Source: Novibacillus thermophilus
GTDB taxonomy: Bacteria; Bacillota; Bacilli; Thermoactinomycetales; Novibacillaceae
Length of the DNA stretch: 64,000 nt
NCBI RefSeq assembly: GCF_002005165.1
Contig: NZ_CP019699.1
Coordinates: 1,364,001 to 1,428,000, forward strand
Reading direction: 5' to 3'
Shown here: piece by piece, positions 1-57,700 of the stretch
How the letters are laid out: every line of letters starts with the position of its first letter
Position numbering within the stretch: position 1 is the first letter of the stretch
The notes under the pieces: model-generated
Told to the model about the DNA's origin: nothing
Database searches by the model: none
What the model saw: only the letters and a program-made list of their open reading frames with translations
Translations under genes and position numbers: made by a program

Positions 1-2455
1 ACACTGGCGGACCGCGAACTGAACATGCTCCGCACTGCCTCCCTTGACATCATCCGAAAGCTCGGCATTGAAGGCGGGTGCAACGTACAGTTCGCCCTCG
101 ATCCACACAGTGACGCGTACTACGTCATCGAAGTGAACCCGCGGCTGAGCCGTTCCAGTGCCCTCGCATCTAAAGCGACAGGTTATCCGATTGCGAAAGT
201 CGCGACGCTCATCGCGTTGGGGTACACCTTAAACGAAATCGTCAACCCGGTGACAGGTCGGACGACTGCTCTGTTTGAACCGAGCTTGGACTACATTGTG
301 ACCAAAATTCCCCGTTGGCCGTTTGACAAATTTCCAGGGGCTGAACGGCGGCTCGGAACGCAAATGAAGGCCACTGGTGAAGTGATGGCTATCGGGCGGA
401 CATTTGCAGAATCGTTGCAAAAAGCGGTACGCTCCCTCGAACTGGAGACGGCGGATTTCTTGTTTCCGCCTTACTCGGAACTGGACGCACACACATTGGA
501 TTCCCTCGTGCAACGCCCCCACGATATGCGGCTATTTGCCCTTGCAGAAGCGTTGCGGCGCGGCAAAACAGTTGACGAATTGCATCAACAAACGGGGATT
601 GACCGCTTCTTCCTTGCCGAGCTGGAACAGCTAGTGAAAATGGAGCGGGAACTTCAGGCAAAACCGTTGACCGAAGCGCGGCTGTATACGGCGAAGCGTT
701 ATGGATTCAGCGACGAAACGATTGCCCGTTTAAGCGGGCGACAGACAGAAGACGTGCGAGCGCTGCGCCGTACGTGGCGCATCCAACCGGTTTATAAATG
801 CGTCGATACGTGCGCTGGGGAGTTCGCCGTTGAGAGCCCGTACTACTACAGCACGTACGAAAGGGAAGATGAAGTGGAGACAGGTGTTTCGCCGTCCGTC
901 ATCGTCGTCGGCAGCGGCCCGATACGCATCGGGCAGGGGATTGAGTTCGATTATGCAACGGTCCATGCGGTACAAGCGATTCGCGAGGCTGGCTACGAAG
1001 CAGTTATTGTGAACAACAACCCGGAGACAGTTTCGACTGATTTCGACATGTCCGACCGGCTGTACTTTGAACCGCTGCACGTCGAGGACGTCCTCCACGT
1101 CGTCGAACGGGAAAAACCGCTCGGCGTCGTCGTGCAGTTCGGCGGACAGACATCACTCAACTTAGCCCGGGAACTGGACCGGCGGGGTGTTCCCCTCCTG
1201 GGGACGTCCATGGAGAGTCTCCACCGGGCCGAAGACCGCGAGCAGTTTGAGCGCTTGTTGAAACAATTAGGCATCCGGCGTCCCCCCGGCGTGACTGTCG
1301 CATCAGGGGACTCTGCGCTGAGTAAAGCGAGCGCCCTCGGTTATCCCGTTCTCGTCAGGCCTTCGTACGTCCTCGGCGGGCGGGCGATGCAAATTGTACA
1401 CAGCGAACAGGAGCTGGAAGCGTATCTCAAAGAAGCGGTGAAGCTCAATCCGGAAAGTCCTGTCTTAATCGACCGCTACCTGCAGGGAAAAGAAATTGAA
1501 GTCGACGCCGTTTGCGACGGGGAACACGTCCTCGTGCCGGGTATTATGGAACACGTGGAGCAAGCAGGTGTTCATTCGGGAGACTCCATCGCCGTTTACC
1601 CTTCCCCGTCGCTCAGTGGGAGTCAAAAAGCGCAAGTCGTCGAGATTACGGCGAGAATAGCCCGGGAATTAAACGTACGGGGACTGTTGAACATTCAATT
1701 CGTCCTTTTTGGCGGCGAGCTGTACGTGCTGGAAGTGAACCCCGGGCGTCGCGGACGGTCCCGTTCATGAGCAAAGTGACCGGGTTGCCCATAGCTCGGC
1801 TGGCAACGCGGGTGATGCTGGGAGAGTCGTTAGAAGACCTTGGACTGCCATCGGGTTTGTGGCCGGAAAAATCACAAGTAGCAGTGAAAGTGCCTGTGTT
1901 TTCCTTCGCCAAACTGTCCGAAGCAGAAGTGACTCTCGGTCCGGAGATGAAATCGACAGGAGAGGTGATGGGACGGGATGTCTGTTTTACCCGCGCCCTG
2001 TATAAAGGCTTTCGTGCCGCCAACATGTCTATTCCCCAGAGGGAACCGTGCTCGTCACCGTCTCGGACAAAGATAAGGCTGACGTCGTGCCCCTCGCTCG
2101 ACGATTGGACGCCCTCGGGTACCGGCTGTTGGCGACGAAAGGAACCGCGAAAAGCCTGCGGCACGCCGGTTTTCGCGTGACGGTCGTCCCGAAGTTGAGC
2201 GAAGGTTCCGAAGACATTTTACAGTTGATCCAGAGAGGAGAAGTAGACTTAGTGGTGAACACGTGGACACAGGGACGAGAACCGAAGCGCGACGGGTTCC
2301 GCATTCGTCGCACTGCGGTGGAAAACGGCGTCCCCTGCTTAACATCCCTTGACACACTTGACGTTTTACTTATGACATTGGAAGGCATGGCGTCTACACC
2401 AACGCCGTTGTCCGGAGAATTGCAAGTGAGGGAGAGCGCGATGCGACATGCATAA
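1..2455 (+). CDS. carB: Carbamoyl-phosphate synthase large subunit (5'-truncated by window, two apparent frameshifts)
   Basis: Makes carbamoyl phosphate from bicarbonate, ATP and ammonia supplied by the small subunit, the first step of pyrimidine synthesis. The window opens inside the gene: about 818 residues remain of a family length near 1,070. Seen in order: the end of the first ATP-grasp half ([18 protein letters not shown]), the oligomerisation region, the second ATP-grasp half starting with [17 protein letters not shown] near base 895, and a C-terminal MGS-like regulatory domain from about base 2045. The frame breaks twice. After VLEVNP at 1740-1743 and again at 2034-2037, adding one C to a run of four Cs restores [16 protein letters not shown] and then [16 protein letters not shown]. 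Both look like sequencing deletions. The stop overlaps the pyrK start by 8 bases, so translation is probably coupled. B. subtilis calls this gene pyrAB. Confidence 0.93.
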
Positions 2456-54751: not shown

Positions 54752-57700
54752 ATGTACTTGAAACGGATCGAGATAAAGGGCTTTAAATCGTTTGCCGTTT
54801 ACACGGAAATGGCTTTTGTACCCGGTATAACGGCTGTTGTCGGCCCGAACGGCAGTGGAAAAAGCAATGTGTCTGACGCCATACGGTGGGTGCTCGGCGA
54901 GCAAAGTGCGCGAACGCTTCGCGGCGGCAAGATGGAAGATGTCATCTTTGCCGGCAGTGACAGCCGACACGCAGTGAATTTTTGCGAAGTTTCCCTGACG
55001 TTGGATAACAGTGACGGCGAACTGCCGATCTCTTTTAGCGAAGTGACGGTGACGAGACGCTTGTACCGCTCCGGAGACAGTGAATACTACTTGAACCGGC
55101 AACCGTGCCGTCTGAAGGACATTACAGAACTGTTGATGGATACGGGACTGGGCAAAGAAGCGTACTCCATCATCGGACAAGGGCGCATTGAAGAGATTTT
55201 GAGCACGAAAGCAGAAGATCGCCGGGGCATTTTTGAAGAAGCCGCTGGCATTGTCAAGTTTAAAGTGCGCAAGGGGGAATCCAAGCGCAAACTGGAAGAA
55301 ACAGAGCAAAACTTGGCCCGGCTTAACGACATCATATGTGAACTGAAAGAACAAGTCGGTCCCCTCTCTGAACAGGCCGAAAAGGCCAAAACATACCGAA
55401 AGCTACGCGAACAGCTAAAACAGTGTGAAGTGGGGCTGTACGTGTACAACATTGCCAGTGTACATAAGGAGTGGGAACACGCCAGCGAACAGCTTCAGCA
55501 GTTGGAGGAAGCACAGCTTGCGGCCGAGACGGCACTGAAACAGATAGAGCTTGAAATGGAACAACTGAAGTGGCAGCTTGAGCAGCTAGACCGTCAAGTG
55601 GAGGAGAAACAGCAACAGCTGCTGAAGACGAGTGAGGCGGTGGAAAAGGCCGAAGGGCAGCACGATGTGCTGCTGGAGCGCGAGCGGAGTCAGCGTGCAG
55701 AACAAAAGCGGCTCCTGGAACAAAGAGAGCACCTGAACAACCGCTTAGCACACGTTGACGACGACTTGACCAAAGTTGAAGAGCGGTTAAAGGCGAAAAA
55801 AGATGACATCGACCGAACGAGTGAAGCATTGCAACAGCGGGAGCACCGTTTAGAGCGTCTCGCGGCGAAGGCTGAAGAACAGCTGGAAGACGTCAAGTCG
55901 GACTTAATTGAACTCATGGGTGAAGCGGCCTCGTTGAAAAACGATTTGCGTCACCTCGATCAACAGGAACAGCAATTGCGCGAACGGCGCGAGAGTTTGG
56001 AGAGAGAACGAAAAGAAACCGAACAGCACGAGAATGAAATCCGCAATGAACTGACGTCGTTGGAAGAACTTCAGCAACGCAAAGCGAAGGAACTGCAGGC
56101 GTGTGTTGACGAATACCGGACAGTGGCCGAAAAAAGAGAGCTCGTCTTGACGAAGGAGAACCGTCTGACGGAACAGCTACAGAAGTTGGGGCAAACGCTC
56201 AACTCCCTCAGTTCCAGGCGGGACGTGTTGAAAGAGTGGGAGGCGGATTTTTCAGGTTTCTTTCAAGGAGTTAAAGAAGTGCTGAAAGCGAGGGAACGGG
56301 GAAAGCTGGACGGCATTGAAGGTGCCGTCGCTGAACTCGTCTCCGTACCGCATGACTTGGAAACGGCTGTCGAGACTGCTCTCGGCGGGGCGATGCAGCA
56401 CATCGTCGTCGAAAGTGAACAGTACGCCAGGGCAGCGATTGACTACTTAAAAAGGCAGCGCCTCGGGCGGGCGACCTTTTTACCCATGGATGTGATAAGG
56501 GGGCGCCGCTTGACCGTGCAGGAATTGAATTCCGTTAAGCGGGACAGCGGGTTTGTCGGGATCGGTCAAGAGCTCGTTCAATTTGATGGACGATACGAAA
56601 ACATTGTATCTTCACTTCTCGGGAACGTCGTCATCGCGCGGAAACTGGCGGACGCAAACCGAATCGCCCGTCTGTTGCGATACCGTTACCGGGTCGTCAC
56701 ACTGGACGGAGACCTCGTCAACCCCGGCGGTTCCATGAGCGGGGAAGTGCCCAGAAGCGCAGCCACAACTTGTTAGGGCGTAAGCGTGAACTGGAAAGTC
56801 TGGAAAAGAAAATAGAGGCATTACAAAGGGAGAAACACAAACTTGAAAAAGACGTAGAAAGATACCACCGCGAAAAAGATAGAATCGAAAACCAGTTGGA
56901 AGAGGTGCGTTCGCAAGGTGAGACGTTGCGACTGGAAGAACAGAAGCTGAGCAGCCAGCTGGAGCACAAGCGTTCTGAATGGGAGCACAGTGTGGAACGG
57001 CTAGAGCGACTCAAAGGTGAGGGGAGCCGCGCTGAGGCTGAGGCAGATCGGTTCAGACAGAAGCGTGCTGACATTGAGTCCCGCATCGAGGCGAACGCTG
57101 AGAAGGCACAAAAACTAAACGCCGAACGCGAGCGCCTTGAACAGGTCATTGCCGCCGAGAGGCAAGAAAAAGAGGCGGAGACAGGTCACGTGACCGAGTT
57201 AAAAGTCAAACTGGCGAAACACTTGCAGGAGCAAGAACACTTGTTAGAGAACGCTCAACGGTTGGAAAATGAGAAAAAAACGGTGGAAGAAGAACTGCGT
57301 GTCTTGGCCGAACGCGTCGTCGAACTGGAGGAGCTCTATCGTGAGAACGACGCAGAAAAAGCAAGTTATGCGCAAAAAATCCGTTCACTGCACGAGGAAA
57401 GGGAAAACATTCGCACCGAGCTCGAGGAGTTACGGCGCAATCGGTCGAAGCGGCAAAGCGAATTGAACGAGAGCGACGCTGTCTATCGCCAGCACCGCCA
57501 AACGTTGCAAGACGCGGAAACGAAGCGCCACAAGCAAGAGGTTGTCGTCAATCGGCTCGATGTGGAGCTGAACAATTTGCTCAACGCTTTGGGTGAACAG
57601 TACGAAATCAGCTATGAACGGGCGAAAGACCGATATCGTGTTCCGGACGACCCAAAGGCGGCCGAAACAAAAGTGAAACAGCTTAAGGAGCGCATAGCGG

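Follow-up and report, generated by a model that had tools for sequence, protein, structure and literature searches.

Gene-fragmenting indel errors have been described for long-read bacterial assemblies (Kastor, PMC12007338; ideel test, PMC8673558). In the parts of these reports that bear on our case, the errors are mostly false deletions, are tied to runs of about four to five equal bases, and split genes that are intact in relatives. The present study describes similar lesions in the deposited chromosome of Novibacillus thermophilus (G000), a single closed contig of 3,629,225 bases. The window, i.e., the whole 64,000-nucleotide stretch that was analysed, covers bases 1,364,001-1,428,000 of this contig and contains eleven breaks in eight genes. 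These breaks are almost certainly consensus errors in the deposited sequence, which would come from an under-polished, probably long-read-only closed assembly; a single closed contig is compatible with long-read assembly without proving one. The likeness has its limits. In the nanopore example given in PMC12007338, A/T-run errors exceed G/C-run errors, whereas in G000 the C/G runs are hit and the A/T runs hardly at all. Furthermore, the error density in G000 lies far below that of an unpolished nanopore assembly, a comparison in which the platform behind G000 is itself presumed. Among the matches listed in a literature search, which did not extend to the strain's genome paper, no report of this error class was found for the genome of N. 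thermophilus SG-1, a strain whose record is CP019699 according to PMC11206425.

Breaks were located with a frameshift-aware protein-to-DNA aligner that permits 2-base or 4-base codons at a cost, with open reading frames (ORFs) of relatives as queries and the window and its neighbouring DNA as targets. References were orthologues from the nearest relative compared (G001, of the same family and a different genus) and, where an orthologue was present, from same-order genomes (G005, G008, G009, G020 and others); besides G001, 19 further relatives share the order, giving 20 in total. Each break was placed by adding every base in turn at every nearby site and rescoring the alignment. Such an alignment locates a loss but cannot name the lost base. 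Since other single-base additions tie at the same spot, the run reading brings parsimony to the alignment. Antisense shadow ORFs produced many false shifts in the initial alignment and were later filtered out. For the genome-wide sample, 20-kb stretches were taken at 20 evenly spaced places together with 60 kb of DNA neighbouring the window, so that about 0.53 of 3.63 Mb was looked at; usable homologues covered 147 kb, 96.4 kb of it outside the window. A reference-free HMM scan was also run. It picked up no more than 3 of the window's 11 breaks and thus under-counts, and its list includes overlapping gene pairs, so it was used solely as a contrast between genomes.

All eleven breaks were recovered by the aligner, and for each the best reading is that one base, net, has been lost. 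All eleven runs named in the sequence-only reading are maximal runs at the coordinates it gave, and one added base per break yields whole codons and exactly the lengths it listed (255, 308, 573, 911, 196, 617 and 1,192 residues). In the five cases where loss was tested against gain, lengthening the run by one base beat removing two bases by 15-18 points. That every break is mended within a run of four to six equal bases, as also claimed, stood for 8 of the 11, where run lengthening was best or at most 2 points off. On the plus strand, the first carB break lies at a C4 one base short that adjoins GGG (1740-1743; aligned shift at 1745), with three references agreeing and run lengthening tying for best. 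The first pyrK break lies at a C4 (2603-2606; shift at 2608; one reference, 2 points off best) and the third at a G6 (2785-2790; shift at 2792; 1 point off). The pyrD break lies at a C5 adjoining GGG (3381-3385; shift at 3381) and ties for best with one reference. The same strand carries the breaks of the Ca2+-type P-type ATPase (C4, 18970-18973; shift at 18970; four references, run lengthening tying for best), gmk (G4, 23132-23135; shift at 23137; five references) and smc (G4, 56741-56744; shift at 56742; ten references aligned and six scored, tie for best). The rqcH (NFACT/EfbA-type) gene runs on the minus strand, and its break falls in a run that is G4 on the coding strand (16988-16991; shift at 16990; three references, tie for best).

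The three remaining breaks, all on the plus strand, fit the run description less well. At the second carB break (2034-2043), a lengthened CCCC run falls 16 points short of the best mend over three references and introduces a proline, where all 19 relatives readable at this position have R (14), K (2) or Q (3). Therefore, the lost base lies beside the run, just 3′ of it, and is best placed at 2038-2041. The second pyrK break (2746-2768; aligned shift at about 2751) is one base lost among CCC, G5, GGG and A5 runs that are not separable: a joint test with one reference gave the same score whether G5, A5 or a GGG was lengthened, and the best mend outside the runs scored 11 points more. The prkC break (32089-32206) lies in the linker between the kinase and PASTA domains, which sit in different frames, with the aligned shift between about 32091 and 32199. 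A candidate site is the C5 run at 32128-32132; the linker aligns poorly, and mending this run scores 9 points below the best. With G005 and G008 as references a single loss is called here, and with G001 two gains, the net frame being identical. The claim that every break sits in a run of four to six is not supported as worded: the second carB break lies beside its run and, elsewhere in the record, guaB is broken in a run of three and one break (L139) is in no run.

Could some of these breaks instead mark boundaries between genes, genes that are naturally split, or artefacts of the alignment? The NCBIfam models name the G001 orthologues as carB, pyrK, pyrD, gmk, prkC and smc accordingly; the ATPase orthologue attains the cut-off of the SERCA-type Ca model, and the rqcH orthologue scores best to the EfbA-type and RqcH models, below their cut-offs. 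In G001, each of the eleven shifts maps within a single protein that belongs to one family, and the score gains are large (103 to 1696). Identity to G001 differs little between the two sides of a break (gmk, 78 and 73%; carB, 73 and 71%; smc, 60 and 56%), and none of the eight genes has an in-frame stop in the counted residues. In prkC, identity drops from 76 to 52% across the break, a drop that follows the PASTA half. An explanation by boundaries or artefacts did account for two candidates outside the eleven, L135:8810 and -6565/-6491, but there is next to no chance that it applies to the eleven themselves, for which it is refuted except as regards the exact place in prkC.

The candidate at L135:8810 is an mtlF/mtlD-like gene pair: at L135:8790-8816, mannitol PTS EIIA and mannitol dehydrogenase are separate in G000, and the two domains are fused in G001. 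Two candidates that lie upstream of the window, at -6565 and -6491, were rejected from sequence context. The region (L117 13430-13520; window -6570 to -6480) is probably a leader, with a stem rich in G and a T7 tract, that precedes a gene on the pyr-operon side, and it mimics a frameshift in alignments. A third candidate, at 22811, is the upstream extension of one G005 ORF and runs into an in-frame stop. Sites at 4126, 45091, 52271, 52301, -16094, -8312, 73804, 76056 and L136:370 were left out of the counts as terminal, weak or of low identity; some of them, 76056 above all, could be real breaks.

After these rejections, seven losses were left in the 96.4 kb outside the window, in an ftsW-like gene, an FGGY kinase gene, a glcD-like gene, a glcF-like gene (two losses), pgi and a beta-lactamase-family gene. 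The breaks in the ftsW-like and FGGY kinase genes fall in G4 runs, that of the glcD-like gene in G4 or C4 and that of pgi in C4; the beta-lactamase-family break is the L139 break outside any run. The glcF-like gene first looked like a gain, but lengthening C5 and G3 scores 1083 versus 1067 and restores SPRGRI as in G001. Over all lesions, the direction is a loss in 20 of 20 if glcF is counted as two losses, and in 18 of 19 if it is counted as one gain. The breaks in guaB and clpX were reached via the reference-free scan, each gene extending over two ORFs that share one domain; clpX was placed to a G4 run with five references and guaB to a C3 run with three. The scan gave 14 candidates outside the known breaks, at most 13 ORF pairs being informative. 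When 12 ORF pairs were examined with Pfam, one domain spanned both ORFs in 3 (guaB, clpX and a LacZ-like gene), the other nine being without such proof. The class therefore recurs in the sampled stretches of the record, essential genes included (clpX, guaB, pgi and others).

Control genomes gave few events or none. At the strict threshold, G001 showed none in 79.7 kb with queries not taken from G000, and two in 159.6 kb once G000-derived queries were included; given these two, the control is not clean. G008 showed one event in 75.0 kb. The list of aligned shift sites for G000 holds 17 sites in 147.0 kb, two of them rejected. In the reference-free scan, shift-like switches numbered 19 in 524 kb for G000, 4 in 520 kb for G001 and 0 in 100 kb for G008.

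The breaks are unevenly spread, and the clustering reported near the start of the window was borne out: six of the eleven lie within 1.65 kb (1740-3385). These six inflate the earlier figure of about one break per 6 kb, which does not hold as a genome figure. Outside the window, the 7 losses in about 96 kb checked correspond to about one per 14 kb, and the window outside the patch has 5 breaks in about 49 kb. If the spread were even, extrapolation would give some 200-300 for the chromosome. Six breaks in 1.65 kb have a Poisson P of about 3e-9 on a background of 10 breaks, a post hoc value whose background is slightly higher with the later-found breaks. The patch is also rich in C/G runs, with 15 in 1.7 kb, which puts it among the top 7% of windows, but this density alone does not account for the six breaks.

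As for base context, C/G runs of four or more were hit in 12 of 858 cases in the checked DNA, against 0-1 of 1456 A/T runs (Fisher p 6e-6 with no A/T hit, or 6e-5 with one, if the second pyrK break is in the A5 run). Fifteen breaks inside and outside the window could be narrowed to a short interval, and 12 of them touch a C/G run of four or more, the exceptions being the second carB break, guaB (run of three) and L139 (none). By chance, 3-8% of random coding intervals of 2-11 nt would do so, and 14% for the 23-nt rqcH interval. C runs adjoining G runs (CCCCGGG type) occur in 4 of 11 cases versus 36 of 858 runs (p 7e-4), a post hoc figure that serves as a lead only; such sites include L134:4346-4356 and window positions 1740-1746 and 3381-3388.

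A further possibility is that the lesions are real mutations of the sequenced culture, i.e., recent pseudogenes or the mark of a lineage with high C/G-run slippage, for instance through poor mismatch repair. True indels favour runs as well, and true run-slippage pseudogenes share the one-base losses in runs. In G000, in contrast, core single-copy genes are hit, flanks are conserved and there is no other decay. Each of the 20 relatives has one intact match to gmk, and smc is intact in 19 of 20, G014 (67% complete) having it in two contig pieces. In G000 both genes are in two pieces, and no second copy of either was found in the 3.63-Mb chromosome; likewise, no second copy of guaB above family or query level was found in G000. 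From what is established about these genes, a cell could not credibly lack gmk, smc and guaB. Thus, the earlier claim that the joint loss of gmk, carB and smc is not credible stands for gmk and smc, but not for carB: a second carbamoyl-phosphate synthase large subunit (G000:C1:3335764-3338901), an intact open frame of 1,086 residues, is 54 and 48% identical to the two halves of G001 carB. This paralogue would soften the loss of carB, which alone proves little. If the mutations were real, gmk, smc and guaB would all have been lost together, and the lesions would run in almost uniformly one direction, with undecayed flanks, in a genome where mutS, the one mismatch-repair gene checked, is intact. 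We consider this explanation very unlikely. The incredible loss of these three genes and the undecayed flanks make errors of the record by far the simplest reading.

Alternatively, the short runs might be real and the proteins recovered by frequent −1 ribosomal frameshifting or by transcriptional slippage. The uniform direction of the lesions would suit this, as would two heptamers, GGGAAAA located at the second break of pyrK and GGGAAAC lying upstream of the run in pyrD. However, 9 of the 11 breaks have no X XXY YYZ-type heptamer (YYY being AAA or TTT) within 15 nt. Transcriptional slippage usually needs a run of 8-9, but the longest run at the breaks is 6. Furthermore, gmk, smc and clpX need no shift in relatives. 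The recovery of these proteins by slippage is therefore scarcely believable, and it is equally far-fetched that a thermophile should routinely read through real short C/G runs by −1 slippage with its core genes normally split in the DNA.

Two observations concern the window itself. First, pyrK (2448-3212) had matches in just 3 of the 20 relatives (strongly in G001, weakly in G007 and G017), so the pyrimidine oxidase type seems different from most of the order. Second, a ylbH leader RNA (RF00516, 81 bits) at 42412-42537 is the sole Rfam match in the window, where no tRNA was found.

A sequencing or assembly error class with run shortening, as first proposed from the letters of the window, thus appears to fit best the shortened C/G runs, the unrelated core genes hit, the conserved flanks, the recurrence far away and the intact relatives. 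The real cells would have intact genes; short runs, mostly of C or G and 4 to 7 bases in true length, would have been called one base too short during sequencing or assembly, and the consensus would have been left uncorrected by accurate reads, which we would expect to disagree with it. The closed chromosome would then carry sparsely scattered one-base losses, at a rate of about one per 12-16 kb in the coding DNA checked, and at least one local patch of worse consensus at 1740-3385, perhaps of low depth. Against these consensus errors stand the three breaks outside runs of four or more, a GTDB-style completeness of 100% and a cluster whose cause is without proof.

This is an ordinary data-quality matter. 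It serves as a warning on the quality of the record and as a modest test case, and it tells nothing new about the organism. With this record as species representative, gmk, smc, clpX, guaB, pgi and others would be wrongly counted as pseudogenes or missing, and truncated proteins from it would pass into databases.
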